A stretch of 64,000 nt of DNA from Hyaloscypha bicolor E (Eukaryota; Ascomycota; Leotiomycetes; Helotiales; Hyaloscyphaceae). The first letter of the stretch is position 1. Every line of letters begins with the position of its first letter. The stretch spans positions 1,054,001 to 1,118,000 of the forward strand of contig NW_020194628.1 of assembly GCF_002865645.1 (NCBI RefSeq), in the 5' to 3' direction. The notes under the pieces were generated by a model that worked only from the letters and a program-made list of their open reading frames with translations, did no database searches and was not told where the DNA came from. Both the position numbers and the translations under genes were made by a program. Positions 16,480 to 42,000 of the stretch are shown one piece after another.

Positions 16480-17280
16480 TTGCTTTGCTAATTCTCTTAT
16501 CTAAAAAAATTGCTCTAAAAGTTTTATATCTCTATCCCAACTCTCCTACCTTAGATTTGAGCACTTTTTAATTACTATTTTAGACGCAAATCAGCGTATG
16601 TTAGGGAGTATAGCTATTTCTGGAAAATCTACTTTTAAAAGTAGCTTAACATACTAGAGATAGTAATATAGTAGCTCAAGAACTTAATAGCCGTTAACCT
16701 AGGTTACAAGGAACCAGTCAGCTATAGCTCAAAGATGACTGCTATAATACTATTTGGAAGGGTCAAGGGCTAACATGTATTAGATGCTTGAAAGCTGTCA
16801 GCTTAATCTTAGCAGCTCTAATCAAAGATATTGGATGCTTAATACCAACTTTAGCTATACTTGGTCATTAAGCAATAAACAGCAGAGCGAGAGGATAACG
16901 CTCTTGCTTAACTGTTACAGGACTTGCAACACTTCCCTATAGCGTCAAAGGGAATATTACCATTTTGTGTTCATTGCAAGTCTTCGAGTCCAAGGGGCTG
17001 TTTTCACTAGGTCAAGTACAATAACAAGTTATCAAAGGGTCATGACATTAGGCAGGCTACTGGCTATGTATATTAAGGCAAAAAATCTCCAACACCAATT
17101 GCCTTTATCAAAAAAATAATATGCAATATTAAAGTAGCTAAATTCCAGTCTCTATAACGTTCCTGTAATTGTCTTCATTTGTTCCCATCGCTCTTCTTTT
17201 CTATATTACTAATATCAAATTCTAACTCCGCCGAATTGACGCTCCAAGTCCGTTGCAGGTCTGACACCGCCAATAGCTTA
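16480..17280. other. Spacer without a recognised gene
   Basis: This spacer has less extreme AT content than its flanks and no open frame. It lies beyond the 3' end of the broken helicase gene and could be its original downstream flank. Confidence 0.4.
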
Positions 17281-20200
17281 ATAATTATAACTACTAACCG
17301 GAGAACTATATTATAGGCATTGAGAGGTTTCCATTAGCATACCATATTCTCTAATCATAAATAGATGGCCATTCTTATAGTAATACTAATGCCCAGTACC
17401 TCTAAAGTCATATACTATAGCTATATATATAGCTGCTTTTTTCTTATTACTTACTAGTATATAGAATATCGAATCTCGTAATATCTTCTCAACTTCCTTA
17501 ACTTCGTTTCCTATACCTGCAGTTTGGCCGGAATATTTATTATATATATAGTATATAAGTTAAAGATATTCTCCGGCCTTATTCAAGAGCTATATAAGCT
17601 TTAATCCAGGCTTTACAAGGCTCTGCTTGAGGGCGAGAAACCGTACCCAGTATAGGAGGCCCTTAATATAGTGTCCTGATTAGGTTCTTGACTTAGATTC
17701 TACTATTAAGTTTTCGTATTTCTTTCTATTAATACTTAAATTAACCTGGATTCTGGAAGAACTTATACTAGTCTTGCCTTTCTAATTATTAAGGAAAGTC
17801 AGGAGAATAGTATAATCGTATCTTATAAGTAGTATTATAGCTAGAAGCCGGTTATATACCTAAAGAATATTAACTTTGGAGTATAAATTAATATTAATTC
17901 TATAATATCTGCAGGTATCTTAAACGAGGTTATAGATATAGCTAAAGGGTTATTCTTTCTTATTAACCTGTTATAAAAACTTATTAATTTGTCTTTAAAG
18001 CCTAATAATTCTTTTATATTAGTTATCTTTTCATATAAGTATTCTGATCTGGGAGATTTGGTAGTTATGGCTCCCCTTTAACTAAAGAGGTCCTAATAGA
18101 GGAGTTTCTAGTAATATCTTATTAGAAGCCGTAATCTTATAGAGCTTTGCCTTAATTACTTGCATCTTAGTAACTAGAGAAATGAATTTCATATTAGCCT
18201 AGATAATAAATTTCTTTATTACCTTATTAATTAATACTTAATAAATAATACGGCTATAGTAGTTGAGGTTTTATAAAGAACCGCAGTAAGTTAGGTAGCT
18301 TTTTATCCCGGAGGCAAAGAAGGGTTCGGTACTATTCTTTAGGTCTATAATTAAGCCTTTACTATTTATAGTATAGAAATCTAATATACTTATATATCTA
18401 TCTATATTCTCTAGGGTAAGAATATATCTATAGGATAGTATAATATAAGAATTCTTATTAAGATTAATTTCCTTAAAAGTAAATAATAGAATAAAGTCTA
18501 TAACTATTTCCTTAATTATTAGATATATATAAATTTAATAAAATATAATACCTGGATAGACCTCCCTATAAATAAACGGATATTAATACCTATAAACTAA
18601 TATTTTTATATAGTACTCTAAGTATAGTAGTAGATTACAGGATACTATATAGGATAACGAGTACTATTTGTAATATAGATAAGACTAAGTACAATCCTCT
18701 ATATATAGTATATAAGGCTTATAATATAACTTGTTATATTTCGAATAATTATAGCTAACTTTACAGGATTCTATATAAAAAGGATAGGACATATTGCCAT
18801 AATATAGAGCTTTATAGCTATAACTACAGGTTATATATAGTCTTCTATACTAAGTATTATAAACTCTATATATCTTCTTAATAATTATATTCTTAATTCT
18901 AGTATTATAATTTTTGTAATTATATATATAGTTATATTTATAAGTTAGTACTGCCCTATAAGTTACTAAATAGAAATAATTAATATCTAAAGGCAGTTTA
19001 TAATAATAGACTTGAATTTTATATTTATAATATTCTATAACCTATTCTATCTAAATCTAATAGCAAACCTCTTCTAGGATCTGTACCTTATAATATCTTA
19101 GCTACTTAGTAATATATCTATATAGTAAAGAGATATTAAATAATATAACTTGGTATTTTGGCTTATATAAATCTCTATAAGATCTCGGATATTTATACTT
19201 ATAACCTTTCTTTATTCTTAGATAGTATTTAAGGTAATAAACTATATTATATAAAGATATAGAATAATATATATTAGGATAAGAATAACTATAGAGAAGT
19301 CTTAATAAGTATTTCTTAGTATATTTGCCTTTAGGAGCAAGCCAAGCGAAATTGTCTAGTACTAAGACTTTAATAGGTATTTCTCTATATTAAAAACAAT
19401 ATAAGGCAAGGTTTGGACTAATTTTGTTTAAGTATTCTAAAATAGAAAATACTTTAGCCTATATAAAAACAGGTTTCGAGATATTAGAGTTACTAATAAT
19501 ATATATCCTATATTATATATAACTTAGTAGTATATTAATATAATTAGAAGTCTTTAAGAATCTATATTTCCGCTTATTATTACTCTAAACTACGGAAATA
19601 ATAATAACTTTGGCCTCTTTACCCTAGAAGTTATTTATAGTAGTAATTCTTAAAGCATTATATAGTATTATTTTCTAGACTTGGACTTGGCTATTTATAG
19701 AAGTCTCCGGGTTATCTTAAAATCCCTAAGCTTCTAACTTTTCTTAATTCCGATCCCTAATAATAATCTCAAAGGAATTCGCTAGCTACTTCTTAATTTT
19801 CTATAATTATCCTAAATATAGAGTAATAACTATAATATCTTTACTTTTATATATTCCTTGTTTTATAAGATATAATATAAGAGTAGTAATTATATTTACT
19901 TTAAATATATTAGTTCTAGATAAGGAAATAGCTTGGACAGGTTATAGGTTCTTCTTTTCTTAGTAATCAAGCCAATATAAGTAATCTCGTATCCTATTAA
20001 CTTCTGGATATTCTAATACTAAGGGGTAATCTTATAAATCCGGATAGAATAGGACTCTAACTAGCTCTAAGATAGAAGGGTATATTTATTACTAAGTTTT
20101 TAATATACTTAATAGGACCTAGAGATTCCTTACCGGCGGCCTAACGAGACACTTAAATAGTAAGATATTAAAGAAATATTTCTTGCCTTAGGAATTATTA

Positions 20201-21100
20201 TATTAAAGCTTATAGTTATTTATTTAAGGATAGAGCTATTTATAATTACTAATCAAGATTATATATTTAATTCCTAGTAAGAATATAATAAGAGTATATG
20301 CCTCGAGAACCTTTCCGGCTTCTTTATAAAGTATAACTTTTACTCGAATATACTAGAGTAACTTAATATTTCTTGCTAGGCCAGATATTATTATACTAAT
20401 AATATAAGCTTCTTGAAGATATTAAAAGTTCAGTTTACTATAATATTTATCTAGTACGGATTTGGAACCATAATAGAAATCTAGTATATAAATGAGATTA
20501 TTAGTAAGTTATATACTTCTTTGCTCTATCTAGTACTTATAAAGAATACTACGTTCTAATACTAATATCTCTTTTAGAGAAATGGCCAAGAGCTAAGTAA
20601 TAGAATAACTCGAAGTAAGTTTCTTCGGCGCTCCTCTAAGCCAACTTTCTATAACTCTAAACTTTCTTTCCTTTACTTCCTAAAACCCCTTATTATCTAT
20701 TCCCTTTCTGAACAATTCCTTAAAGTACGGATTATAGGTCCTTATAAGATGGGCTTGGATATTTATTCAGGAGTTTGGATTATTTAACCTAGATAATATA
20801 TTTTCAATTTCTTATAGTATTTCCCTAATATCCCAATTATGTTCCTATTTATTATGTTTTTCCGTCTTCGTGGGTACGACTTCTTCCCTTATATAATAGA
20901 GAGTGAGATTTTGAAGCAAATCGGATTTGGATCGTAAGCCTAGACGGATGACTTGCCTTACGCCATCCTTTACTAAATGCTCCAATAACTGATCGAGAGC
21001 ATGATTCGTAATGTATGAATTGATATATACCTAACACAATTCCTAGATTCTATTAGTATCAAAGAGATCCCTACTCTCAAACCAATGCTAAATGGAAATG
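17280..21100 (-). pseudogene. NFX1/ZNFX1-type SF1 helicase, C-terminal fragment, RIP-mutated
   Basis: On the minus strand the frame from about 21090 downward gives TNHALDQLLEHLVKDG (near 21009), RSKSDLLQNLTLY and later EHNWDIREIL, KERKFRVIESW, GLARNIKLL, KVLEAYTL, a degenerate GDHKQLRP-type motif II/III region, and SILELV and SRTNIF stretches. This is the order expected downstream of Walker A in NFX1-type helicases. Many codons are TAA or TAG where Gln, Trp or Arg is expected, while the frame is kept over more than 1 kb. AT content rises away from the insertion. It is the continuation of the fragments at 27265-28254 and 35253-36275. The 3' end near 17300 is a guess from where the frame can no longer be followed. 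Confidence 0.8.
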
Positions 21101-21116
21101 CCGCATCGGCCGTTTA

Positions 21117-22578
21117 CTAAAACCCAGATGCCACCATTTTCTTTACTTTAAGGTCATCGCGAGCCTTCTCCAATGCCTTCTTCCACTTCATGATATCTTT
21201 TCTGGCGTCTTTAGACATGAAATACCACTCCATTGAATCGTAGCCCTTCTCATCCTTACGCAGGTATGATAAAGCTGTCACATGCTCCTTTTTGAATATT
21301 CCAGGCTCTCTCTTAAGCTCTCTTATTCTGTCGACCTCGATCTCGAACATAATTCTGTACGAAAAACCTGAGAAGGCGTTTATGACAGATGGTGACATAT
21401 CATTCGGTTGATGCAGGTCAGGTCGATCATGATTAGACATCAGGCGTAGCCCCAAGAGTCTCTCTGAAAAGAGGAAAAAATCCAACTCGGTCAAAATTCC
21501 AGGGCGCTTGAGGTTGGTGTTGATCCTACCCACCAGGATCAAATCACCAAGACTAGAAGGCTCGATGGATGTCAAGTGTTCGGTCTTTCTTAGAAATCCC
21601 TTCTTCGGCGCTTCCATAGCACTTTCATTGGCTGAAAACATCTCTGGAAGACGAGCCACAGAGGATCCAGGATAAAGATCCTGATCAATGCTGTAGGCTT
21701 TGCCATCTGGCAAAAGTTCCTCGTGTTGCAGAGGCCACGCAGAATACCAGATTTCATTGGCTTTCTGATCTGGCGCTGAGATCTCGTGTCCAGAGTCTCG
21801 ATTGACCGTGTTCATGTCCCCTGATTCAGAGGGCTCTGAAGCTGATGAGCCAATCAATGACTCCGTCTCTGCCATGTAGCTGCGGAGTGGAAGACTGTAC
21901 GAAGCAATGCTCAACCTCCCAGAAGCATTGCTTGATCGTGCGAAAGTACCTGAAGCCTCTTGCAAGTCTCCTTGCATCTCCTGTTGCTCTTGTTGATTTG
22001 CACACAGTCTAAGAATCGCAATATCCTTACGGATCTGCTCGATGGCGATTTTTGTTTGACTATTCGTCACACTATATGCATTCTATAGTTAGCTTCGATC
22101 ATGATTAGAGTTACGAGGTGGGGGAGACTTACAAATTTAGCGATGAGATTGCAATATTAATGGTGATTTTGCAAGTTGCTAGCGCCTCCTGTAATAACTT
22201 GACGTCGCTCTTGCTGAAAAGCTCCCACTTAAGTCCGTTCCTGAATCCGCCTCGACTCTTGCCGTCAGGTGCAATGAAGGGACCAACCACGCGTTTGGCA
22301 TCTTTACAGAGCTCGATGCAAGTCCCGAGAAGGACCTCAAGGTCCGATATCATCTGTGACGGTAGCCTGATATCGCCTGTGTCTTGATAGGTGAGTGCGG
22401 TTGTAAGTAAACCTAGCACTTGATATAGCCCGTCGATACTCAATGTAAGATCCTGGATATCTTTTGAGGCATTGCGGATGCCCTTAGAGAGGTCGTAGAC
22501 TTGTTGACATACTTTGAAAGCATTGGCGGCGATGCTTAAGGTTGTCCCAGTTATAGCTAGAGCTATTGGTGCAGCCAT
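21117..22578 (-). CDS. Fungal STAND N-terminal domain protein with PH-like C-terminal region (cargo)
   Basis: Two exons, 22578-22133 and 22071-21117, joined by a 61-nt intron (GTAAGT to CATATAG), give about 466 residues with no stop. Residues 1-150 (MAAPIALAITGTTLSIAANA, KVCQQVYDLSKG, DIQDLTLSIDGLYQVL) match the helical N-terminal domain found at the front of fungal NLR/STAND proteins. The middle is Ser-rich and disordered. The last 160 residues (LDFFLFSERLLGLRLM, SYRIMFEIEVDRI, MEWYFMSKDARKDIMKWKKAL) have the strand pattern and final helix of a PH domain. NACHT or NB-ARC motifs are absent. It is carried inside the captain-type element. A role in non-self recognition or signalling is inferred from the N-terminal domain only. 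Confidence 0.75.
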
Positions 22579-22599
22579 TGTTCAAGAAGTTTGTAAGTT

Positions 22600-23870
22600 A
22601 CCTAGGGGTAGTACAATTCTTGGACTGTGGATATCTGAAAAATTATGGATCACTGGCTGGTATTTGAACGCCTTGCCGTATGACTGACAACGCTTTGAAA
22701 CATTGGGTGACGTAATTTCTGCACTCGCCCTCACTCAAAATGACACGAACACAGGAAATGATTAGAGTCGGCTCTATCTGTGAGCCCAGCCACAGCCGCT
22801 AAAAATAGACTTAATTATTCATCGGCGCCTGCCGACCAAGGCACCGGTATTGCATAAAGAGGATAACTGTGTTTCATAATATTATGTGCAATTCGTGGTG
22901 GTCATCCAAAAAGGGAGAAGAGAAGGGGGGTTGTCAATTTGATCTTAGATAACACAATAATATAACATTGGCGACTTGGTTTTTCTCAGAGGCTCTGGCC
23001 GGTTTTTGTGATCATAATGAAAAGAGATGAACTAGCATTGATATTCAGTTTGAACATCATCTTAATCAAAATTCTCGCCAGATTACCATAGATCAATTAT
23101 GTAGGGTAAGTTAATCAAGTGCCCTCAATATGTCTGCTGTCAGCCTTTCGTTCTCCCATAACCAAACTATCCACATCCACTACCCTAATGGAACATTCTA
23201 CGATTAGGTCAACTATCCTCTTAACCTCTGGACCACCTTCGACTTCACAGAGGCAAAAGCTTTAGCTCGGCCATTCTGATTGTCTTTATCATTCTCCTTT
23301 TGGCTCGCCTGCCAAATTCCCCCCCTCGTCGTCGTCCTGGGAGCTAATGCGACGAGTCCTAGACGTAGAGTCATATGCGGGGCAAAAACCGCCATACTTC
23401 AAAGATACAGAAGAACTAATTGTGGTGAATGCTCAGCTAATGACAGCATGGGAGGATCTGAAATCTATTTCGCAGATCCTCGAGTCAACGATAAACTCGG
23501 TTGAAATAAAGGTGGATCCTGTTGGACCGTCGCGGGCATTCAGTCCTTACCTGCGTTTGATAGCAGAAATGGAGGATTCGAGGAAGAGAAGTCTAGAACA
23601 CATAGAAAATAGGTGGAAGAAGAAGAAATGAATGCTCATGTGACAGATTTTTGGGGCGATATCTTTTGATAGTCATCCGCCGAAAGAGGAGTGGGTGAGG
23701 AGGTGTCACGGCCTGGACAAGCTGTGGAAGTGGAATGTGGTGTGTTTGTGTAAATGTATCTATGAATCATGGTGCCCTAAGGGCGGTGAAGAAGCTATAT
23801 ATATGCCTGTGCGCAGCACGTGACAGGAGGATTGACATGAGTGATGCCATAATCTCCTAACACTAACTAC
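22600..23870. other. Internal spacer of the captain-type element, one small possible gene
   Basis: A plus-strand frame at 23347-23631 encodes about 94 residues (helical, ending WKKKK) and could be the last exon of a small gene starting near 23280. A minus-strand frame covers part of the same DNA. No domain is recognised. The rest (22600-23200, 23640-23870) shows no coding support. Confidence 0.35.
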
Positions 23871-23871
23871 C

Positions 23872-25300
23872 TTACATCTTTATTCTCTTTGATGGCTTCC
23901 CGCTTCCTAATCCTCCTTGAGCATTCACGGATCTTTCACCAAGGGCTCTTGCTTTCTTCTGCGTTTCCCTCTGTTCCTTGCGCGTGGTCTTGGGCATTGC
24001 TATGCCATGAACATTGCTCAAATGACTCGACAGTTCCTGGGGAAGCATCTCTTGCTGATAGGTACAGGTTATTGGGAAGCAAGGGCACATAAAAGTTGAA
24101 AGCAAATTAGGGGCGTCGATATGTGCCGCTATGTGGTCAAAATTGCTAGAACGGGTGACCTGGCTCATCGTCGCCGAGATTCTCTCAATAGGCGACAGAT
24201 TCTCGTTATGAAGGCAAAACGGGCAGAAGGAAGGGATTGTTCGACGTCCATTGTCAAATTGGCCAGCGTACCCATGCTCTCTAACCAACCTCCATACCTC
24301 CTCCCAATGGGAGGCAAAATGATCATCTTTCCTGACCCCGAACTGCTCCCACTCCAGAAACTGCTCGCAAATACCGCACCACGAGATCGACTTGACGGAG
24401 AGGGGACTAAGTCGGTGCTCATAGTACAAATGGCGGAGATAGTCTTTTTCAGAGGAAAAGATCGAGCTTGTTAATAGTATAACTTTTGGGGGGCCCTGAG
24501 TATCATTGGCTGTCGGATTTGTGAGGATAGCACAGCTATTGTAGTAGCAATGCCACTCCCCATGAGGGATATTCCCGGCTACGTAATATTTATGGTAAAG
24601 CACTAGTGTATGCTGAAAGACATGTCGGGTTTGATCACGGCGAGTCTTGAATGAGGAAAACCCACAAAGCTTTGGATTTACCAGCTTGAGAGGCCCTTGT
24701 GCATAGTATGAGCATGGCAATTCGAGAGGCAAGAGATGTTCTTCGAAGGCCTCCTTCGCAGTCTTATTAACTTCTTTGGCGTGGGCACAATGAGCAGCTT
24801 CAGGTGCATGATAGTTAGAGGATAGATCGGCCCCAGAAAAGCGACACGTATACGTGCCAAGTAGAGGTTCCTCCCCAGGGATGAATTTACCAGACTTGTG
24901 CGTGGCAGAGAAAACCTCGACCATAAGATCAGACAGCGCTGCATCTGTATAACCTCCCGAACTCACTACCTCTCGAAATCGAGTGATTGACATGCTCTTT
25001 GGTATTGCACTTCCGTCGTTAATGTTATGGAGACGAATGGCTTCGAATCCCTCCAAATAGTAATGGGGTAAGCCGATGGAAGAATTGCCATTCGTCTCGA
25101 AATCATTGTCTGCCATTCGTCTCGAAATCATTGTCTGCCATTAACGAGCCCTCGCCAGAAGCCTCGCCATGGCCCTCGTGTCCGTGTGAATCGACAGTGC
25201 TGGTTATATCGAAGTAATCTAGAGACTGAACAGCTTCCTCGTCCTGTGCGACCTCGAGCATCCAGTCATGAGCATCTACTAGGGTAGTGTCGGCAGACAT
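23872..25300 (-). pseudogene. C2H2-finger C-terminal part of the captain-like gene, frameshifted
   Basis: The frame runs from the ATG at 25300 (MSADTTLVDAHDW) and shifts at a 25-bp tandem duplication (25087-25136) into the longer frame that ends at 23872. Finger-like pairs are visible: CGICEQFLEWEQF with HFASH, SFCPFC with a distant HIAAH, and a C-terminal CTYQQEM with SSHLSNVH; the tail is basic (KKARALGERS, KPSKRIKM). The ATG at 25300 is in the same frame as the recombinase stop at 25331-25333, 11 codons away, so the two parts were probably one protein, as in many DUF3435 proteins with C-terminal C2H2 fingers. In its present form no full-length protein can be made. Confidence 0.7.
25087..25142. 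repeat. 25-bp tandem duplication causing a frameshift
   Basis: The 25-mer GCCATTCGTCTCGAAATCAT plus TGTCT occurs twice in perfect tandem (25087-25111, 25112-25136), followed by six more matching bases. Because 25 is not a multiple of 3, it throws the C2H2 part out of frame. With one copy the frame would run through. Confidence 0.95.
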
Positions 25301-25330
25301 AGATCCAAACTCTGGATGGGGAATCGTGGG

Positions 25331-27073
25331 TTATAGAGGATGCTGGCCCGTGAACGCCATGCGATATTCTTCTCGGTAGATAGCGCCCATAAGAGCTCTT
25401 CGACGGTTCTTTAACCGTGCAGTTGCTGCAACGAGGCTTTCGATGAGAGGATCGCAAGCACGGACGGCAGCACTGATCGATCCGTATAACTCGCAGAGTT
25501 CAGATTTGACCTGCGAGAATTCGAGACCGGCCTTGACGATCTCAGGATCCTGCTGTACCCTGAGCCACCCTTCTTCGCTGATGGTCTGGGGCAGCTGCTG
25601 GGTTCTGTTGAGGGAGAGCCCATGCATTTCGGCTGCATTACCAGCGCGGATGCCACGAAATACCTCCTGTACACTGACAACGGATATGGCAGAGTAATAG
25701 TGACTATAAATATCCGAGTTGGTCTTGTGGCCCATCAAGAATCTCCGATCTTCAGTAGACACATTTGCGTAGAGTACGTTTGCGTATCCTCTACGTAGCG
25801 AGTATGGCGTCGCGGGGTGTTCAAATCCAGCCAGGCGACCAAGGCCTGTGATATTCTCCCCAAGCTTTGCGCTGCGAAGAGGCTGTCCTAATGCTGACCG
25901 GAACACAGGAACTCCGACAAAGGCTTCCGACTGACGAATCTTGCGAGAATAGGCACCTACGATTGGGTCCTTCGTTAGAATAGGCGGCGTCGATTTGTGT
26001 CCGCAGAGGATATGCTTACTTGGTTCAACAGCAATCAGGTCAGCCCATGTCATCCCCGGCCCAAAAACGCCGTCGACCAGGCCCAACGTGACGAGTAGAC
26101 GTAACGAGTCCTGAGTGGCCATCGCGGTAGGTAACAATCGGAGAGTGATAGTTTTCTGCTCATCCGAGGTCGTCTGGCCTTTCTGGTACTTGAAATTAAT
26201 GTTGGCAGCGATCACACAATCACCGTCGTCGAAGCGAACCACGTAGAAGTCGCAATGGTCCCAGCAGAGGCAATGATTTGCCTGTTCTACAACCGCCGGA
26301 CCACCCCAAGCAAGGTCCGAACTACGGCCGCAAGAATCGACGTAGAGATTCATGTACAGCGCTAGGTTGAGTATCAGTCTGACGCCAGACAGCTTGAGGG
26401 CAAAGGCATCCGAGAAGACCATAGCGATCAAGACATCAAGATCGTTTTTCGTAGCCACCGGCTTCACTCGAGTCTTGTTTGATAGCTCGCCGTCTCGCTC
26501 CAGCCTGTTAATATATACGTAGGCCTGTGACATTTCTTCAGCGGTCAGCTGCTTCTTACCAGAGAAGCGGTAGGCGGCGCAAAGCGTGTGCGAGATGTAG
26601 CCTCGCGCTGTTTTCGAGGTGATCCTCTCGTCTAGCTTGCCAGACGACGTTCGAGCAAGGTACAGGAGGAACAGCCTAACCAGCTCGAGCGATATATGCT
26701 GGGCGCCGGAGCAGAAGTACATCTCTGGGTCCTTGATTCGGACTGGATTCAAGAGTCAAGTGTTAGCTAGATCTAAGAGAAGGGGAGCAGCAGCAAATCG
26801 ACACTGCCGATTTGGACAACCCGGCATGCCAGACTTACCTCGGGAGTCGTCTGGACCGACGAGCTTAATGAAGTCTTTGAAGCGTTTGACGGCGATCACG
26901 ATCATGTTCTGGTAGCTCCATGAAATCGGTGGAGCAATCCATTGTGATACGTCGGTGTCGCTGATCGAAGTCCCATCAGCCCGCTGCGCGTCCCGCGCGA
27001 GCTTTGCGATGCGATCATTCAACTTCTTCTCTTTGACGCTCAGCGTCCTCTGCTGTCTCTGTAAAGGAAGCAT
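25331..27073 (-). pseudogene. DUF3435 tyrosine recombinase (Starship captain-like)
   Basis: Exon 1 (27073-26839) and exon 2 (26742-25331) join in frame across a 96-nt intron and give about 548 residues to a TAA. The C-terminal catalytic region reads TPYSLRRGYANVLYANVS, RRFLMGHKTNSD and IYSHYYSAISVVSVQ, which fits the YxxRR, GH and active-site Tyr pattern of the DUF3435 family of integrase-like recombinases. An N-terminal alpha-helical SAM-like region precedes it. The TAA at 25331-25333 is one C-to-T change from CAA, and the frame continues for 11 codons to the ATG of the C2H2 part, so the full protein was probably about 1000 residues. If the recombinase domain alone is sufficient, it might still be active. 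It is oriented away from the right end of the element. Confidence 0.75.
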
Positions 27074-27181
27074 TGCTCACAGCTCTTGACGCCAAATAAC
27101 GGCAGAAGTGACGAAGATGAAAGAGAAGAGTAGACACCAAATCATGACGGTGGTGCCGGTCCTTCCTTCTTCCTTGACGGG

Positions 27182-27219
27182 CAGAAACGCGTGGGCACGG
27201 ACAGAAACGCGTGAGCACG
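27182..27219. repeat. Subterminal direct repeat, 20-bp period, two copies
   Basis: The motif CAGAAACGCGTG(G/A)GCACG occurs at 27182-27199 and 27202-27219, just inside the right end of the captain-type element and about 110 bp upstream of the recombinase start. It could bind the recombinase or form part of its promoter. Confidence 0.85.
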
Positions 27220-27222
27220 TGG

Positions 27223-27263
27223 CTCTTTTTAGACGAAGGCCGCAGGCCTTCGTCTAAAAAGAG
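27223..27263. repeat. Near-perfect inverted repeat (hairpin) at the right end of the element
   Basis: The arm CTCTTTTTAGACGAAGGCC (27223-27241) is the exact reverse complement of 27245-27263, with a 3-base loop (GCA). It abuts the helicase Walker A codons (27265-27288) and so marks the right terminus of the inserted element. It could be a recombinase binding site, a terminus signal or a target-derived structure. No equivalent hairpin was found at the left end. Confidence 0.9.
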
Positions 27264-27264
27264 A

Positions 27265-28254
27265 CGATTTCCCTGTCCCTGGCGGGCCTTGAATGAGAGC
27301 TAGTCCTGTGCTGAGAGCTTGAATGACGGCGAACTGTTGGGCTTCGTCGAGCGTGGACCCACCGTCTAGCTTAGCGTAATCGAAAGATTGCCCCGGTTTT
27401 AGAGTCAGTGGTATACTAGCGAGAATTTCGAGATTGAAACTGAATCCTCTTTTGGTAGCGTATACTGGAGGTTTGATGACGGCAGTAGAAGTCTGCGAGT
27501 CTGGTGCTATGATCTCTGCGAATAGAAGGCTTAGTTTCCGACTCATTTTCTGTAATGCTTATAGGGTTAGTTGAAAAGATAGCAGGAGTATCCCCGGAAA
27601 CTCAACGAGCGATTACCGAGTTTTGGAAGGCGTAATGTGAGTACTAATCCAAACTGTATCTTCCGTTTTATATTCTGCCAAGCCCAGTAGTATAGACGCA
27701 TGATTCGCTTGTCTGAAAAGGCTGGGAATATTATCTAGTCGTCTTTTGTTATCTGAACTGGAGTTATTTCTTTCGTGGAATGGCAGGGTTGGATTATAGA
27801 CAGAGAGGAATATGATTTTACTATTTGCTGAGACAAAGCAGACTAGCGAATTAACTTGTAAAAGCTTGCTTCCTTTCCACTAGTCCTCTTGCTGCTTTAT
27901 AGATTTATTATTAATTTGGGGAGGTTAGTCAAATTCTACTATGACTTATAGACCTTTTCTGTAATCTATATATATACGGGAAAAGCGGATATTATAATAG
28001 ATAAGCTTCCGAACGCCTTATTAACCTTGGTATATTGGAATATTATAATTGGGATGTTTTAGTCTCGTAACCTCTTTATATACTATATCTCGTAGTTATC
28101 CTACTATATCTTCGCAGAGGAGTCGGAATTGTCTATCTAGTAGTCCGGCAAGGCCTGACAGGTGGTATTATATTAAGTCGATTAATAGGAGGTATTCTTG
28201 TTATAAGGAAGCAATCTCTTGTATTATAGGGAGGATCTGGATATTGGCGATACC
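27265..28254 (-). pseudogene. NFX1/ZNFX1-type helicase, middle fragment up to Walker A
   Basis: The frame from 28249 downward (ILPIIQEIAS, LAGLLDRQFRLL, EVTRLKHPNYNIP, SEAYLL) continues from the N-terminal fragment. It leads into an open part (27546-27265) with SFNLEILASIPLTLKPGQSF, LDEAQQFAVIQALSTGLALI and the P-loop QGPPGTGKS at 27265-27291. Stops in the first 700 bases are of the C-to-T kind and AT content is high next to the retrotransposon, whereas the last 300 bases are nearly clean. After the Ser codon the sequence is no longer helicase: the track runs into the hairpin of the captain-type element. Confidence 0.85.
28250..28254. repeat. Target-site duplication ATACC (left)
   Basis: The five bases directly before the 5' LTR match the five directly after the 3' LTR (35248-35252). 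Joining the flanks across one copy restores a continuous helicase reading frame (NNYTG, then IANIQILP). Confidence 0.9.
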
Positions 28255-28557
28255 TGTAATGGGCACACGTGATGGCGCATGGACAGGTGTCAGATGTCGT
28301 GGATCTAGTTTCCTATTTTGGGTACAGCTTGCGATCGGAATCATATGGATCGCATGGGATTTCCTAATTAAGTAAAGGGCTTCGCATGCCTGGCTAAGTA
28401 CTAGGGAATATATAGGGAGACGCTCCTAGCTTTGGAAGGGGTATTAATTAGTCTCTTGTTAGAATCAATTCTTGGAATTAGTTATACTTGCAAGCGTTAC
28501 TCTGTAGCTTACTTACCTTGACTACTTATATATTACCCTGCTATTACATACCTTACA
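28255..28557 (+). repeat. 5' LTR, 303 bp
   Basis: It starts TGTAATGGGC and ends CCTTACA, so it has canonical TG...CA ends. It aligns without gaps to 34945-35247. Nearly all differences are C-to-T or G-to-A in the 3' copy, which starts TATAATAGGT and ends CCTTATA. Confidence 0.92.
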
Positions 28558-31500
28558 TTCTAATTGATCCAACCTTCGGGGAGCAGTTCGTTGCGAGGTA
28601 GTCAAGCCATTAATAGACAAAACCACTAATGGCTAGAGTATTAACCAGAAGAAGCGCCTCTGCTATTACTGGGGCGACCCAGTCGGGCACCCAGGGAAGC
28701 GCCTAGTCAGCCACTCTAGCTACTGCCTAATCAGGAGAAGGGAGTGGAATTCAGATACCCCTAGAACCAGCTAGCAGGATAATAATAACGGAAAAGCTAG
28801 CGGCGGCTCGTTATTATATTACTGAGTTAGAAGCAGAGATATAATAGAGGGAGGATCTGGAGAATCTAGAAGCTCAGATTCGCTATCTTAAGAATATTCG
28901 GGTACCTATTATAGAACCTATTATACTACTAGTAGTATATTTGGTTTACAGGACTCCAAAAACCCGAGAATTACTAACTTATAAGGGGAAGAGTATTAAG
29001 GAAGCCCAGGATTTCTTTTATTAGGCAGAGCTAAAATAGTATAAAGATAGCAGAATTACCTGGGCTATAGATATAGTAAAGGTTATATATTATATTTCCT
29101 GCTTTAAGAATATAGCCAGAGATATCTAGAAATATAGGGAGTAATTAGTAGATATTAATACTATAAATTAAGAGACCTTTATTAAGTTTATAAAGAATTC
29201 TATCTTGGATCCAGAGAACTATAGTAATAATATTCTTATTAAGTTTAAGAATACAAAATAGTAGCTAGGTTAGAGTATCTAAAGCTTTATATTCTACTTA
29301 GATAGCCTATTAAATAACTTGGGATATACGGATTTACTATAAGAGCGGAATAACTTATTTAATAGTTTAAGGTAAGAGATTCGGAACGAGATTAATTACT
29401 AAAGAAATACTCTATAAGAAAGGAAGAAGCTTATTTCTGTAGCTATAAGAGTTAAGAATAACTTAAACTAGTCTATTTAACGGAAATATAATAATAAGCT
29501 AATAGATTAATAAAAGAAAGGAAATTAGAAAAAGAAAAAAAGAAATAATAAAGAGAAACGGAAAAGAAGTATATTCCCGTTATAAGGTTTATATAACCAG
29601 GATAGTAAAAGTATAATAATAGGGTCTAATATAATACCTATATTAGGATCTATAAAACCGGATATAACTTGCTTTACTTACTAGAAAAAGAGTTATTATA
29701 CTATTACTTATCTAAATTAGGAAAAACCGACTTGCTATAACTATAATAAGTCTAGCTATAAGATATATAAGTATCTAGAACTAAAGAAGCCGGGAAACGG
29801 ATATATCCTATAGTAATTATACTTATTTATATTATAGAGAATAAGGCTCCTAAAACGAGAATAGTAATTAAGATTACTATTAAAATAAGGAAAGATAAGT
29901 AAAGAATTAGAATATTAGTTAACTCGAATATAAAGGCTAATTATATAAAGAGGAAGTTAGCCTTAGATATAGGTATTCCGTTAATATTAAGAGTAACTCT
30001 CTTATTCTTATTAGAGAAAAGAAGGATTTATTTATATAGAAATTATATTCTTGGGATTACTATTAAGAATATACTAGAGAACTAAAGAAAGGCTAATATA
30101 TATTTTATATTATATAATTTTGATCTGAACTATATTAATATAATACTTGAATTCCTATAGTTTTATTAGGTTAATTCTCTAATTTCCTTTAGGAAAGTAA
30201 TATAGAAATACCAGATTTAATTATAGAAGATTAAAGTTCTAAATACCAGAAAGTTTACTAAAATAATAAAGTATAAGATATATATTTTTCTATTAACTAC
30301 TTATCTTATAATAGATAGTTAAAGAGTTATTACTATTACTATAAATAGAATAGCTATATTTTCTAGGAAATATTAGAACTTTTTCTAAATATTCTTTATA
30401 GAGGCTATAGGTATACTACCCGACTATTATATAATAAAGTATTATATAGATCTGGAATTAGGATTCTAACTACTATATAATCCTATATATACTTTATTAG
30501 AAAGAAAGCTTGAAATTCTTTAGGAATATCTTAATACTAGCTTAAAGAAGAAATAAATCCGTTATTCTACTAGTCTAGCTAGTATCCTAATTATATTTGT
30601 TTTAAAGAAAGAAGGCGGCTTATATCTATATATTAATTACTAGAATCTAAATAGGATTACTATTAAGAACCAAATACTATTATTACTTATTAGTAAAATA
30701 ATAAATAGGCTTTATAAAGTAAAGATATATATAAAGCTAGACTTAAAAGATACTTATTATTAGTTATAAATATAAAAGAATAATAAATAAAAGACAATAT
30801 TCCGAATATATTATAGATATTTTAAATACTATATTATATTCTTTAAATTATCTAATATTCTAATAATATTCCAGATATATATTAACTATATACTAGTAGG
30901 CCTTATAGATATTATTTATATAGTTTATCTAGATAATATTTTAATTTATTTAGAAAACCCAAAATAGTATATAATAATAGTCTAATATATATTCGAGTAA
31001 TTATAGTAATACTAGCTTTTTATAAACTTGGTAAAATACGAGTTTAATATAGAAAGAATAGAGTTTCTGGAATTTATAATTAGCCTAGATAATATAGAAA
31101 TAGAGGCTAGCCGGATTATAGCTATTAGAGAATAGCCGGCCCTAAAAAATAATATCTAAGAAGTTTAAATATTCCTGGATTTTACTAACTTTTACTAGAG
31201 GTTTATTTATAAATACTTTAGGATAGTAAAAGGGTTAACTAATTTACTAAAAACTAGCAGAAAACTACTATATTAGTTTAGCTAGATAGATAAGGTAAAT
31301 AAGGCTTTTAGAAAGCTATAAATTATATTTATAATAGTACTAATTCTTTATTATTTTAATCTAGTTTTAAAGATTTATATAGAAATAAATATTTCAGGAT
31401 TTGTAATTATAAGTATAATTTCCTAGCTCTTTAATAAGGAAGCAGAAGCCAGGTAATACCCTATTATTTTCTATTTAAAAAAGATAACTATAATTAAGAA

Positions 31501-34500
31501 TAAATATAAAACATATAATTCTAAACTTTTAGCTATTATTCTAGTATTTTATACTTAGTAGTATTACCTAATATATATCTGGTATACTATTATTATTAAA
31601 ACAGATTATAATAACTTAAAATACTTTATAACTAAAAGAAAACTAAATAGTTAATAGATAAGATAAGTAGAAGAGCTAGCTGCCTTTAACTTTATTTTAG
31701 AATACTGGCCGGAATATAATAATCTTACTAATAGGCTATTAAGAAAGCCAGACTTTATAGTAGATATAAATAAAAATACTTTACTACCTATATTTTATAA
31801 TAAGCTATAGAATACAGAATAGAGAATCCTATAGGTAATAGTAATAGGATACTATACTATTTCTATAATACTATAATATAAGGCCTAGAAGAGAAAAGGT
31901 AGATACTTCTCAATTAGTGAAATACTAAGGAATTCCGAAAAGGAAGTCTATTTTAGTAATAGAATAGTATCGGAAATATTATTATTTAAGCCTATTACTA
32001 GTATAGCTAGTTACAAATAGTATATACTATAGATTCTAGCTATATAGGCAGCTAGGTCCGAAATAATATATAAAAAAAATAGAGAGATATTACTTAAACT
32101 ATTATTATAGTACTAAAGGCTTAATTTATTAGTATAATACTAGTAATATAAATAGTTCTTAAAGGGAACCTTTACTAGAGCTATTAAGACTTAGGAACTT
32201 AATATATCTGGGTTATTAAGATATTAGGGTACTATTTATATACTAAATAAGTCGGCTCTTAAAGAAAAATTACTATAAGCTAACTATAATAATCCTATAG
32301 ATAGATATTTTAGTATTAGTAAGATACTAGAGATCCTCTAGAGAAAGTACTTCTAGTAAAGTATAAGAAAGGATATAAAAGACTATATTAGAACCTATCT
32401 TATATATTAATAGACCAAGATAAAGAGATATTTACTATATAGTATACTTAGTTTATTTCCTTTTTTTTTTAAGCTATAGTAAGAAATTATTATAGACTTT
32501 ATTATAGAGCTATTCCTTTTTAGGTTTTATAGTAAAGTATATAATTCTATACTTATTATTATTAATAAATATATGAAAATAGTATAATATATTCTAATTA
32601 CTAAAAAGGTCTTGGCTCCTAAGCTAGTAGAGCTATTTATATATTATATTATTAAAGATTTTGGTATGCCTATAGGTATAACCTCTAATAGAGGATCTGT
32701 TTTTATAAGTAAGTTCTAGTTAAATCTATATTTCTATTTAAAGGTTTAATAATAACTAAGTATAGTATTCTATTTATAAACTAATAGATAAATAGAGAAT
32801 CTAAACCAAACTCTAGAATAATACTTAAGATATTATACTAGCTACTAGTAGGATAACTAGATAGTAAAGCTTATTCTTATAGAATTCACATATAATAACT
32901 TTATATATTTAATAATAGAAATATTTCTATTTTATATCTTATATGAATTCTATTCTAGTATTAAACTATATATTAAGAATAATATTTCAAAAAAAGAAGT
33001 ACTAGTAGTATAGGAAAGAGTATAAAGAATTCAAGTAAAACGGAAGATACTAGAGAAATAATAGTAAGAAGTAATAGATATATAGAAAAAGTACTATAAT
33101 AAGAAATATATTAATAAGAAGTTCAAGATATATAATAAAATTATACTTTATATAAAGAATATTTAATAGCTATAATCTAGTATAAAGCTAGTAAATAAAT
33201 ATCTCGGCCTCTTTAAAGTTCTGGAAATTATAGGAATATATAAATAGGTATACTATTTGGAATTATTACTATTATATTAGATCTATAATATTTTCTATAT
33301 TTCTTTCTTGAAACTATAATATCCGCAAGCTAGTACTATAGTAGAACTAGAGCTAGTTGAGATTAAGGGCAAAGAGGAATTTGAGGTGAAATCTATTATA
33401 GCCTATAGGAAAGGCAGAAAAGAAAAGAAATATCTCATTTATTAGAAAAGCTATTTATTAATAAATAATATATAAAAACTATTAAGTAATCTGGAAAATA
33501 TAGCTCAAGAATTATAAGAATACTTGGAAAAGAGTAATATTATAATACTATTAGCTAAATAAAGGTATAAAAAATAAATGCTTTTATTAGGAAACTATTA
33601 AAAAACTATATATTTATTTTTAGAAAAACCATATAAAAATTATTAAAAACTCTAATTTCTATATCCTATAAATACCCTATTCTTATAACTATTCTCTATT
33701 ATTCTTATTATTATCCTTATTAGGATTCTTTTAAGAAATAGGTAGTAAATTAGCCTATAAAGCTATTAGCTATTAGTAAGAAACGAGGAAAAAGTAAACT
33801 TACTTAATACTAAAGAATATTAATTATACTATTAAAAGTACTTTATACTTATACTAAGCTAGTAAGAATTACTTAATCTATTTCTTGGATTATTAAGGAA
33901 ATCTATTAGCCTCAAATAATAGCTTTAATATAAGAAGTATATATAGTTTAGTATAAAAGAAGGGCAGTAATAGCCTTTTCTCTTTTAGGTAAAGAATAGG
34001 AAAAATACTTATATATATTAATAGCTTAAAGAAGGCAGTTTAATTATACTATATATATTTAAGGAACTTTAAATAATATTAGAATAAGAAATAAAAGAAG
34101 AAATTTATAACTTATAGGATTATATTTCTTATTCTTAGAATAATAGTAATTATATACCGAGTAATTATTACTCTTAATATAAATAAGATTAGGAAATTTA
34201 GTAATATTCTTGGAATATTAAAAATAATAAGAGTAAATTAAGAATATAGGAATATTAGCTAAATAGATAGTAATAGGCTAAAAAGTACTAAGAGAAGTAT
34301 TTATCTTAATAAATAAAGAAATAGAAGAGAGAATTAGAAAAGGACTTAAATAAAGCTTAAATAAGGCTTAAAGGAGCTTAAAGAAGCTTAAAGAAGACTT
34401 AAAGAAAGAAGGTAAGAAATAAGAAGAAGCTAGATATAGTATTATAGTTAAGAAAAAGAAAGGTTAGTTAGTAGGAAAAGAGAGGCCTTTTTATAATATT

Positions 34501-34944
34501 CTTTCTCCGAATAGTAATTATAAATTCGGAACCGGCTCTATACTAGGAATATCCAGAAAATTCCAAAGAAGGAATTTATAAATAAACTAGAAAATCGAAT
34601 TAACTTTTCCAAGCTTTTAGGCCTATAGAATAATAATTTATTTGCGAATAAAGGCTAAGTTAGGATTTATAAACTAATTAGGAAATTAAATAAGCTTTAT
34701 ATCTAATAGTATATACTATATTTATATTACCTTTATAAGAGGGAATTACCAGAGGTAATTTGTAAACTAGCTAGGAAGGGTTAGTAAACTATATCCTTAA
34801 CTCTATTACCTAGTATAATAATGGGGCAATTATAGGAAGTCTTTAGGGAAAGCTAGTAGCCAGGAAAGTTTTAGGGAGATATTTATAAAGCTATTTATAG
34901 TTTTCCCAGGCCTCTTGGGGATAAGGGCCCAGAAGAGAGGTTAA

Positions 34945-35247
34945 TATAATAGGTATATATAATAGTATATAGATAGGTATCAGATATTATAGATCTAGTT
35001 TCCTATTTTGAATATAGCTTATAATCGGAATTATATGGATTATATGAGATTTCCTAATTAAGTAAAGGGCTTTGCATACCTGGCTAAGTACTAGGGAATA
35101 TATAGGGAGACGCTCCTAGCTTTAGAAGGGATATTAATTAGTCTCTTATTAGAATCAATTCTTGGAATCAGTTATACTTGCAAGCGTCACTCCACAGCTT
35201 ACTTACCTTGACTACTTGTATATTACCCTACTATTACGTGCCTTATA
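34945..35247 (+). repeat. 3' LTR, 303 bp
   Basis: It is the same length as the 5' LTR and collinear with it. Both terminal dinucleotides are TA here instead of TG and CA, as RIP on both strands would produce. The 5' LTR is visibly less mutated, which is unusual for two copies that would be expected to suffer RIP equally. Confidence 0.92.
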
Positions 35248-37871: not shown

Positions 37872-38560
37872 ATGATAGGAACGCCCTCACCGCAAAATCT
37901 ACATCCTACCTTTATCATCTTCATCCAAGTACACGAACCCCGCAAGCTAATATCAACTTACGGCTCTGCGTCTGCGGAAAGCGCAATAGCAGAGTTCGAA
38001 CCGCTCCTCTTGTGGAATACTCGAGCTCAAAGAAGTGCTATCTTGCATGATCTCTACTTCGCAAGTGACTCGAGCTAAAGCTTGCAGTCAAGTCTGGCAT
38101 CCCGTGCGGAGCGTCCAGTGTTGAACCGATTCACCTTTCTAATTCGACGCTTGAATTGCAAGCCCTGGCAAATAAGCACGCAAAGATCCTTCCACTGTGC
38201 AACCACACCCCTCTACCGGAGGCGACATGTCGTTTGTTTTCGTGTGGAGGATGGATACTCTCTTCCAATCGCCCTTCGCGGATAGAGAGATGGCCAAGTG
38301 ACCACAGCTGTCGCACCAGCAGACGACGGTTACACAGCATGAGCTAAGTGGCAGTTATTCCCAATGCCTCAAAACGAGGCTACCAATCAATCTGCTGCTC
38401 ACATCAAATGCCTCATCTATTAATATGCTTGTCTGTCCTTGACTGCTTTCGCGGTATTATTCACAGTGCCTCGCTGCTTTGCTACTTCATCTCCACCTTC
38501 TGCCGCCTCGACGCACTTCACGTACTTTAATCAAGTCTAACTTCGCCATCGACATTCAAA
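37872..38560 (+). other. Upstream region of the dynamin-like gene, no recognised gene
   Basis: A short frame (37872-38078, starting MIGTPSPQNLHP) begins at an ATG immediately next to the transposon's TA. Other small frames overlap on both strands. None has a domain, and the ends probably include the promoter of the following gene. Confidence 0.35.
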
Positions 38561-41143
38561 ATGGTCTTGAAACCATTCTATACAGATACCCTAAACGGCT
38601 TGTGTTCTAAAGATCAACTAGATCTACTCGACTCCGTCGACTGTCTCCGTTCGTAAGGCATCAGTCATTATGTCTCACTGCTACAGATCATTGTATACGG
38701 GGACCAGTCTTCTAGGAAAAGCTCTGTGTTAGAAGCAATTTCCGGCGTATTATTTCCGATCAAGAGCAACCTGTGCACTCGATTTCCGATAGAATTAGTC
38801 CTCCGCAAGACTTTACACATTGGCGTAACCGTATCAATCGTCCCACATTACTCTCGCAGCGAATCCGAGCAAATCTCCCTCAGTGGCTTTTACGAGAAGC
38901 TAGATGGCTTCGATGGGCTTTCAATACTAATTAAGAACGCAAAAGCAGCTATGGCAATCTCAACGCATGGCAAAGCTTTCTCGAAGGACCTCCTTCGTAT
39001 TGAGGTCTCAGGCCCCGATCGGCCTTACTTGACTATTATGGACCTGCCCGGACTCATCCACTCCGAAACAAAACAGTAATCTGCTTCCGATATCGAGCTA
39101 GTACAAGACGTCGTTCAGGCCTATATAAAGGAACCTAGAAGCATTATCCTCGCGGTAATCTCCGCCAAGAATGACTATGCGAACCAGATCGTCTTAAAGC
39201 TCGCCTGCACTACTAATAAAAGTGGTAATCGAACACTGGGTATTATTATAAAGCCGGATACTCTGATCCTTGGTTCCGAAAGTAAAGCTATATATATCTC
39301 TCTTATAAGGAACCAGGACGTCGAGTTTTATCTTGGATGGCATGTTTTGAAAAACATGGACTCCGAAACGGGAGTATGGTCGTTGGCTGATCGCGATATT
39401 AAGGAGGAGGAATTCTTCGCTCGAGGGATATAGGAGAATCTGTCTCGCTCGCTCTTGGGCATTAACAAGTTACGGAAAAGGCTTAGTAAGGTTCTTCTCG
39501 GACAGATTGCTACTGAACTACCTAGCTTAATTAATGAAATCGAAATCAAATCCAAAGCATACTATAGTCGGCTAGATAAGTTAGGAGAACCTCGAGCGAC
39601 CTTGGACGAATAATAACTCTATTTACTCCATATTAGTTAATTATTCCACTCTCTAATTAAAGCATCCATAGATAGTACGTATAATAATCCGTTCTTTGAG
39701 GATGCGAAGTCTGAACCCGGCTATTAAAAGCATATACGGGCTATAGTATAGAACCTTAACCTAGACTTTACGGAATATATTACCAGACAAGGTTACTGCC
39801 ATAAGATTATTGACTCTCTAAAGAAAACTACTGTTCCTAAAGGAGTAACTACGGCTATAAGAGAAGAATTTATAGATTACATATAGTACCTAATACGGAG
39901 GACAAAGGGTCGAGAGTTACCGGGAACCTTTAATCCTATAATAGTAGCAGATTTATTCCTAGAATAATTATCTCCTTAGAAAGTAATTACCCGGAAGTAT
40001 ATTGAAAAAGTCTGGAAGGCCGCTAAAGAATTCCTTAATCTCATAACTACCTATATCGCTAATACTATAATCTCCAAAGTACTTTTCTAAAAGATCTTCG
40101 AGCCTGCTCTAGATTAGCTATTAAGGACTCTGAACGAAAAAAGCACCGAACTACTAATACTATATTAGAAAAGCTATCCAATTACATATAACTACTATTT
40201 TACCGAGGCTCTTTAAAAGGTTCGGAACAAATAAAGCAAGGATAAGTATATAAGAATTATAAAGGATTTTTTTGGTGTCTCTTCCCTTAGTTCCGTATAT
40301 TTCGGCGGCCAAAACAAAGATCTTAATTCTCTTGTAGTAGCTCTAGTATAACGTATAGAACCTAACATGAACCGCTTTGCATGTTCCGAAGCTTTAGATT
40401 ATATATAGAGGCTTACTATAAGGTTGCCTGCTTCTTTCTTTACTTCTCGCCCCTTCTTCTATAGATCCTATAGCTAACCGATCTATGTATTGAACAGGTT
40501 GCTCTAAAACGTTTCGTCGACAATATTGCTATCGAAGTTATTAAATCTAAGCTTATCTCTCCACTTTACGATATCTTTTCTCCTATTACTGTCACTTCTA
40601 TGCCCGCCGACCTTATAACTCGCATTACTGGCGAATCTAAGGAAAACCGCGCCTAGCGCGAATAACTAACCAAATAGCTGGATATCCTTATAAAAGGCTC
40701 CGAAACCTGCAAAAGCTTTATCGGCGTCAGAGTTCTTGGTAAGAAACTCACCTAGCCTGTCGCATTCTGACGCATTACTTATGTGTTGAATAGGTGCGGA
40801 TGATAGTACGACTTATAGAGGTACCTGGTTCAAATCTGTAAACTTTAATCCTAGCGACGACGATGGAGGTTCTTCTGATAAGGGGTCTGAGTTAGACGTT
40901 AGATCTTTGTCTAATAGTTCTTACGACCGTGGAAGCCCAGCCTCCGAGGAATCCAAGCCCTTGAGCAGAGATATCGTCAAGAGGGCAGTTGAGCCCGATC
41001 CCTTAGAAGCCATTGAGATACCCAAGGCTATAGACATGCTACTAGTAGAGGAAGAGGATTCTTACCTTCCGAAGAAGAAGAAAGACAAGAAGAAGTCCAA
41101 AGTTGTATCGAAACGGGCTATATTTAAAGAACTAGAATTTTAG
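38561..41143 (+). pseudogene. Dynamin-like GTPase with stops and a mutated P-loop
   Basis: ATG at 38561 opens MVLKPFYTDTLNGLCSKDQ. The GTPase domain follows: P-loop GDQSSRKSS (Gly to Arg, codon AGG at 38714-38716), SGVLFPIKSNLCTRFP, the G3 motif MDLPGLIHSE, QAYIKEPRSIILAVISAKND and a G4 remnant KPDTL. The stalk region and GED-like end (KRFVDNIAIEVIKSK, MPADLI) are collinear. In-frame stops occur at 38654-38656 (TAA, from CAA) and repeatedly after about 39430, mostly of the C-to-T or G-to-A type. After a likely intron (ending GAATAG near 40793), a last exon encodes an acidic then Lys-rich tail (KKKKDKKKSK) to 41143. Members of the family remodel membranes; fungal Mx-like homologues are common. 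This copy cannot make a full protein. Confidence 0.8.
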
Positions 41144-42000
41144 TTCAAACATTTAGTCAGTCTTATCCTATGTTATTGGGAACCACCTGTAAATTCTAAC
41201 TTAAAAAATTCATAGACATAAATGATAAGGCATCTCTTATGTAATTACTGGTCGTTATACGTAATTAGTGCTTGAGCCTTGATTTTTAAGACTATAGCAT
41301 AGAAATATAGTATTACGATTCAACCCCATTATGTCTTAACCTTGAATGAATGTTCCTACCAACAGAGCATCCTATGTGACTCTTTATGGGAACGTGTTCC
41401 TTACAACCTGTTACGGCTGCGTGTCTAAAACTTCTCCTCCTACCTATGTCCTAAGTACTTGACGCATCCAGTTGATATGATTTCAGGCTGCTGTATGTAT
41501 TTCGAGGAAGGATTGGCGGTACCGATAGCTCCGAGACTCTTCCTTGGCTCTAACCTATTTTGGTTAGCGCAGCGTGGTGCAGCAACTTTGGATCAAGTCC
41601 ATCGTTAGATCAGCTCCGCAACAGCCTTTACAAACGATCTTCCAAGGTCCAGTGGCCAGTTTACATCTGTATTACGCGCTGTCAATCTCGCAGAGTCCTT
41701 CCGCCATCCCCGCACAAGGAAGACCGTTCCATTAACAGATCCTTCGAAACAAAAACCGAACATAAGTTACGTGTCGAACACGCACAAACGCAACTTCAAC
41801 GGCAATATCACTTTCGCTACGACCTATCCCCATCCTGCCTTGAACCAAATATAGAAGGAGATAAAAAAGACGATACTTTGGACTTGGTGCGAAGTCTTAC
41901 TAGTTCTCGAGTTCTAGGTCCTGCTGTACTCTTCAAATCCTCTACTATATTATCTAGACCGCAATGTCTCTTCCAAGGTGGATTATAACCATAGTAAAAG
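41144..42000. other. Intergenic, no supported gene
   Basis: An open plus-strand frame (41560-41988) has no ATG at its start and no domain. Its minus-strand complement stays open over part of the same distance and leads into the coiled-coil remnant at 42100-43700, which is another possible reading. Confidence 0.3.

Follow-up and report, generated by a model that had tools for sequence, protein, structure and literature searches.

The window analyzed here is a 64,000-nucleotide stretch of the genome of the ascomycete Hyaloscypha bicolor E (RefSeq assembly GCF_002865645.1; contig NW_020194628.1, positions 1,054,001 to 1,118,000), in which a ZNFX1/NFX1-type helicase gene on the minus strand is split by an insert carrying a captain-type tyrosine recombinase gene. 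The insert occupies positions 21010 to 27264 (minus strand; ∼6.25 kb) and starts directly 3′ of the Ser codon of the Walker A motif (GPPGTGKS). A first-pass annotation, made from the sequence alone, had described a ∼6.2-kb segment of normal GC content splitting the helicase at these codons, and the segment was confirmed: its GC content is 0.48, and the helicase flanks are affected by repeat-induced point mutation (RIP), the effect being mild in the 5′ flank (GC, 0.41) and strong in the 3′ flank (GC, 0.28).

The helicase segment upstream of the insert (27265 to 28253, minus strand) is 80% identical to an intact paralogue on another contig (C28) and ends with the codons for GPPGTGKS, the Ser codon lying at 27265 to 27267. 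Its match to AAA_11 (E value, 0.00024) fell below the curated Pfam cut-off. The frame reads ...ALIQGPPGTGKS and then departs from the helicase sequence, and across the same point the C28 paralogue reads GPPGTGKSYTGVAIIKALL. Comparison with one occupied and three empty copies from the same genome (C5 and C28, C62, and C1, respectively) placed the insertion point, the first non-helicase base, at position 27264 (minus strand). The helicase frame had been thought to continue after the insert; it does resume past position 21010, but ∼80 bp following the Ser codon are absent at the 3′ junction (21009 to 21012, minus strand), and the rest of this copy (17046 to 21009, minus strand) is RIP-degraded.

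The captain gene (25331 to 27073, minus strand; exon 1, 27073 to 26839; exon 2, 26742 to 25331) comes first when the insert is read from its 5′ end and, as predicted in the first-pass annotation, encodes a DUF3435 recombinase that reads inwards (PF11917; E value, 6.3e−19), with its ATG (27071 to 27073) ∼190 bp inward of the insertion point at 27264. PF11917 was matched by 14 of 19 aligned members, and an R...R..H..Y pattern was visible in the alignment. The predicted structure of the recombinase had a mean predicted local distance difference test (pLDDT) score of 49.6, and a search of viral contigs for relatives of the captain gave none. The window gene ends at an in-frame stop at a point where its relatives continue reading. 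A part labeled by eye as a C2H2-type zinc finger (ZnF) lies at 23872 to 25140 (minus strand; Pfam gave a sub-threshold zf-TRAF match only) and contains a 25-bp tandem duplication (25086 to 25135). Recombinase and ZnF part form one open reading frame (ORF) in four proteins found by search, which are numbered with the prefix P (P0004, P0007, P0010, and P0016), and in a distant protein from contig C27 of the same genome.

Repeat and folding analyses identified a palindrome at the 5′ end of the element (27223 to 27263, minus strand). Its perfect 19-bp arms (27245 to 27263 and 27223 to 27241; 100% complementary) enclose a 3-bp center, and its folding z score was −6.3, with none of 200 shuffled sequences equally stable.

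Occupied and empty helicase copies in the same genome

Searching the 82-Mb genome (76 contigs) with the helicase piece matched seven places, one on each of contigs C51 (the window copy), C28, C5, C62, C1, C42, and C2. The comparison of occupied with empty helicases that had been suggested as a check could thus be made, on paralogues rather than alleles: C51 and C5 are occupied, and C28, C62, and C1 are empty. The C28 helicase is an intact ORF of 1934 amino acids that is uninterrupted across the P-loop; it has AAA_11, AAA_12, and RZ-type domains, a CCCH match being weak and below threshold, and among solved structures the best relative of its helicase core was NFX1-type zinc finger-containing protein 1 (9q9z; E value, 7e−102). 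This ORF, intact across the site, excludes an intron or a gene-model artifact as the origin of the break. The C62 and C1 helicases are RIP-degraded yet continuous at the P-loop, and the distant C42 helicase is also continuous across it.

The C5 helicase reads GGAAAGAGT, followed at the same Ser codon by the palindrome in RIP-mutated form and the recombinase, and resumes 12,201 bp onward with ∼10 bp of the target absent. The 5′ junction is precise within one base in both C51 and C5. The core common to the two inserts (23842 to 27264, minus strand) consists of two aligned stretches (25251 to 27264 and 23842 to 25111), and homology stops near the ZnF stop; beyond the core, no match of >120 bp was found between the inserts.

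Captains are common in this genome, given the 62 pieces, several per gene, that matched DUF3435. The only close copies of the window captain were those in C51 and C5, both at the Walker A Ser codon, and the next most similar were from C27 (28% identity) and C28:780k (24%). Homologues at non-P-loop sites with different ends would have spoken against a P-loop target; the C27 recombinase alone fits that description, at its low identity and with a 5′ end that is undefinable. It is intact (1122 amino acids; L027:5919-9284) with a C-terminal zinc-finger-like region, and no P-loop gene was recognized at its site.

RIP-tolerant scans of the genome with the palindrome and with its inner flank (≤3 mismatches) recovered C51 and C5 plus one AT-rich match each (C71 and C29); a backward control of the inner-flank scan likewise gave one match, and the AT-rich matches are chance matches. 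The terminal palindrome was found at no further convincing site in the 82 Mb by the RIP-tolerant scan. What counts against this uniqueness is that a DNA search for which the element's 5′ end served as the query retrieved the window alone and missed C5, so degraded copies may be overlooked.

Probable independence of the two insertions

As RIP converts C to T and G to A, comparisons between copies were restricted to transversions. C5 differed from the empty C28 by 0.5 to 0.7%, and C51 differed from all others by 1.4 to 4.1%. Between C5 and the empty C1, the difference was 0.2% in the N-terminal piece, 2.3% next to the site, and 1.0% after it. A quartet of C51, C5, C28, and C62 was split into C51 with C62 and C5 with C28 in all 500 bootstraps. 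With C28 and C1 as the empty copies, C5 joined C28 in 425 and C51 in 75 of 500, and with C62 and C1, C51 joined C62 in 437, C1 in 60, and C5 in 3 of 500. C5 also has in common with the empty C1 an insert of ∼188 bp that is absent in C28, with no transversions in 689 aligned bases there. Since the two occupied copies each have a different empty copy as their partner, independent insertions are favored, and judging from these comparisons the arrivals in C51 and C5 were probably independent.

Several observations weigh on the other side and would suit a single ancestral insertion that was multiplied when the helicase segment was duplicated and was then precisely lost from the empty copies, with no repeated targeting. 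C51 and C5 share ∼130 bp (pieces of 43 and 81 bp) past the edge of C28 homology (window positions 17001 to 17046), a hint of common descent, and they were joined in the 75 bootstraps mentioned above. Divergence between C51 and C5 was indistinguishable for element and host when recombinase and ZnF part were taken together (74/3273 versus 154/6186 transversions; P = 0.53), and for this reason one insertion and two are not separated by it; for the recombinase part alone, divergence was lower than that of the host (P = 0.002). Close to the insertion site, 23/987 transversions separate C5 from C1, and the Ser codon of C1 is of the type found in C51, so gene conversion may blur the tree. A single insertion nevertheless appears very unlikely, as it would have to accommodate the unanimous grouping of the occupied copies with different empty ones in the quartet with C28 and C62, the 188-bp insert common to C5 and C1, and the position of occupied helicases from other fungi in three clades that are strongly separated.

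The same break in helicases of other fungi

With the helicase cut at GKS as the query, 262 matches were returned, of which 120 were listed and all 120 examined. Eight of the 120 end within residues 636 to 640. The tail of P0031 (Xylographa parallela), ALFRRRPQACV, corresponds to SLFRRRPAAFV in the first 200 bp of the window element, and 1 of 2000 shuffles was as good; the tail of P0032, HVLTRFCPRRKEGPTP (aligned as HVLTRFCP-RRKEGPTP), also matches these first 200 bp, with 0 of 2000 shuffles as good. Random 200-bp pieces of the window, those overlapping the element being kept, were as good in 7 of 2000 cases for P0031 and in 1 of 2000 for P0032. The P0032 helicase is joined directly to sequence inside the palindrome, and the longest contig is 100,712 bp both for P0032 and for P0153, a C-terminal helicase half. 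The P0094 helicase (∼52% identity to the query) breaks between GKS and SLF, and the captain homologue P0016 is 76% identical to the window captain over 35% of the query; P0094 and P0016 are on contigs of equal size (101,471 bp), which we infer to be one contig.

A helicase tree was built with 76 rows, namely C28, the window piece (17% of the columns filled), and 74 of the 95 proteins P0027 to P0121, inclusion requiring GPPGTGK plus at least 220 residues before the motif. The five rows marked as occupied were scattered, with five changes, at least three of them forced by strongly supported (starred) branches; this tree counts P0027, which is unproven, as occupied and P0058 and P0059 as empty. 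P0032, P0094, and the window group fall in three different, strongly separated clades. When the part of the helicase that follows GKS was searched with, 2346 matches were obtained, 120 of them listed and 119 new, and the GPPGTGK[ST] motif was absent in 39 of the 119 new listed proteins. In one of these 39, P0157, the helicase resumes at S-YTGV after foreign residues, and this protein sequence may represent a 3′ junction without loss of target.

The evidence from other species is to be read with some caution. Twelve further proteins of the 120 listed share an end at residue 663, where an intron border is probable, and clustering of ends alone therefore proves nothing. The junctions were seen at the protein level only; P0032 has no palindrome, and the three-residue tail of P0094 is uninformative alone (971 of 2000 shuffles as good). 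Among the eight proteins ending at residues 636 to 640, P0027, P0058, and P0033 were rejected as proven occupied copies, as no match to the element was found for their tails, and so were P0059 and P0066, whose tails are too short for such a comparison.

A chance hotspot, or an assembly or gene-model artifact such as an intron or a RIP-rich region of integration, was also weighed. The window region is AT-rich with other transposons present, a common setting for Starships (partial text of PMC12134995). The same codon is nevertheless broken in two genomic copies and in other species, an intact paralogue is open across the site, and the tails match the element, so that such an explanation is extremely improbable.

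We regard it as highly probable that ZNFX1/NFX1-type helicase genes are the target of a site-specific element of the Pezizomycotina, which is mobilized by a DUF3435 recombinase with fused zinc fingers and whose 5′ end is joined directly downstream of the Ser codon in the Walker A motif. As far as can be read from sequence, the P-loop of one helicase family is a recurrent, site-specific landing site. The proposal that P-loop codons serve as a landing site thus holds, with repeated use seen in C51, C5, and the broken helicases of other fungi and with empty copies in existence. Its extension to many P-loop genes is not supported: all confirmed cases belong to one ZNFX1-like family, and the palindrome was nowhere else convincing in the genome. 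General insertion into P-loop genes was ruled out, by the palindrome scans, in this genome only, because outside it the search was made with this helicase alone.

The intact helicase (L023:2876-8680) was 89 to 94% identical, over 55 to 60% of the query, to proteins from Rhynchosporium, Botrytis, and lichen fungi (Cornicularia and Xylographa). Horizontal transfer of the helicase is one possible reading of this similarity.

Cargo, 3′ end, and relation to Starships

A high-copy repeat of ∼122 bp (23697 to 23830), with TG...CA ends and GGAGG on both sides by eye, is inserted between the core and the cargo of the window insert; among the 40 of 129 candidates that were scored, it was found at 39 other places at 91 to 97% identity, apparently spared by RIP. 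The gene at the far end of the insert (21117 to 22581, minus strand; two exons) has a PigL_N domain (Pfam; E value, 2.8e−14), which we take to be a fungal STAND-type N terminus. In the first-pass label of a STAND-N/PH-like cargo, the PH-like part has no Pfam support. The cargo gene is not in the C5 insert, and no second genomic copy was seen among 40 of 129 candidates scored. The C5 insert instead carries a TPR-CHAT gene with an open frame of 1553 amino acids (L021:3915-8573), unlike the window cargo.

With respect to Starship elements, the insert has a DUF3435 captain that is the first 5′ gene and reads inwards, and paralogous empty and occupied sites were found. In a Starship study consulted in part, 19/20 elements had direct repeats of 2 to 12 bp and 18/20 had terminal inverted repeats, and elements of <15 kb were discarded as captain indels (PMC12153272). 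A comparison of the first 80 with the last 400 bases gave no terminal inverted repeats here, since 172 of 200 (C51) and 177 of 200 (C5) shuffles were as good, and neither inverted nor direct similarity of the element's own ends exceeded that of shuffles. By eye, no direct target repeat was seen at C51, and GAGT lies on both sides of C5, which does not fit the empty site. The inserts (∼6.25 and 12.2 kb) are below the Starship-typical >15 to 20 kb, truncation being possible, and target bases are missing at both 3′ junctions (∼80 bp in C51 and ∼10 bp in C5). Given the repeats that were not established, the 12.2-kb copy, and the 3′ ends without target bases, 6.2 kb is possibly a truncated size. 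The type and placement of the captain agree with the suggestion of a very small Starship, but the repeat and size features were absent or ambiguous, so that the insert is best called a candidate Starship.

The missing target bases could mean that a larger, ordinary Starship uses this site and that C51 and C5 are 3′-deleted remnants, their small size being an artifact of decay. Consistent with this, the copies are RIP-affected or have a stop, and the final piece of C5 before the helicase, which has a weak Chromo match (E value, 0.005; under the curated cut-off), reads by eye as retroelement derived, like a cut-off retroelement end. The STAND-like and TPR-CHAT cargo also resembles that of Starships, a NACHT being described in Starship Horizon (PMC9594970, consulted in part). 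In both copies, however, the missing bases start exactly at the insertion point, and past the ZnF part the inserts have no common match of >120 bp. We consider this account a serious contender, somewhat short of probable.

The end of the shared core near the ZnF stop, after which the cargo differs, and the precise 5′ and ragged 3′ junctions of both copies would also be expected of a compact, one-ended element whose recombinase defines the 5′ end only, the 3′ end being joined by repair with loss of target and the cargo being whatever lay downstream of the captain. This is possible, if on the doubtful side: the two copies compared as DNA may both be decayed, and the resumption at S-YTGV in P0157 may mark a 3′ end joined with no target bases lost.

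Other features of the window

Further upstream, the same helicase copy is split by a second insertion of ∼7 kb (28254 to 35245), which is long terminal repeat retrotransposon-like and has end repeats of ∼277 bp that are 88% identical. Coding remnants of a dynamin-like GTPase, partly degraded, were found at 38000 to 41150, with GDQSS-K-SS and DLPG motifs recognized by eye only.

Comparison with known elements and significance

Inteins splice out of the protein, whereas the helicase element truncates it and is a DNA element that encodes a tyrosine recombinase. The two are alike in place, as P-loop inteins are also mobile elements in the Walker A motif of ATPase genes, beside GK[ST], where they sit between Lys and Thr (PMC5050341, in the text available). 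Cryptons are likewise eukaryotic elements with a tyrosine recombinase (partial text of PMC3212892), from which the match to DUF3435 (PF11917) and the further genes in the inserts set the helicase element apart, by description only. Like the solo DUF3435 genes reported in part of PMC12134995, it is a captain without two defined element ends; unlike them, one end and the target are defined here by comparison of occupied and empty sites.

Preferred Starship sites include other transposable elements and 5S rDNA (PMC12134995, as consulted). The Osiris Starships of the Enterprise family (PMC12153272, likewise consulted in part) are similar in having a 5′ captain and a conserved multicopy gene, 5S rDNA, as a target that is fragmented by insertion. 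In contrast to these 5S rDNA Starships, the target here is a protein-coding helicase P-loop, the inserts of 6 to 12 kb would fall below that study's 15-kb filter, neither direct nor terminal inverted repeats were established, relatives carry a zinc-finger fusion, and the 5′ end is palindromic. Captain targets named in the literature consulted are short motifs, other transposons, and 5S rDNA. No captain element targeting a helicase or a P-loop was found in the titles and abstract beginnings searched, most subscription papers and all preprints lying outside that scope.

In the mechanism proposed for the site-specific element, the recombinase, probably aided by the zinc fingers and the palindrome, would recognize the conserved P-loop DNA and join the 5′ end of the element there, truncating the helicase. 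The repeated copies and wide distribution of the helicase would offer safe, portable landing sites, in the way that 5S rDNA serves some Starships and the P-loop serves inteins. The sequence 3′ of the ZnF part is variable cargo. Hrr1, SAD-3, and ZNFX1 are silencing or antiviral helicases (partial texts of PMC9276528 and PMC5384783), and by analogy the interrupted helicase may share such a role. More tentatively, a distinct clade of compact elements with zinc-finger captains might home to the ZNFX1-type Walker A motif across the Pezizomycotina, move between helicase lineages and perhaps species, define its 5′ end only, and disable a relative of Hrr1, SAD-3, and ZNFX1.

If a conserved protein-coding P-loop serves as a reusable landing site, DUF3435 recombinases would have a new kind of target, and several fungi would provide clean pairs of empty and occupied copies with which to dissect how captains choose their DNA. 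The finding questions the habit of discarding captain insertions of <15 kb, and it would tie a mobile element to the recurrent loss of a helicase with relatives in RNA silencing and antiviral defense.

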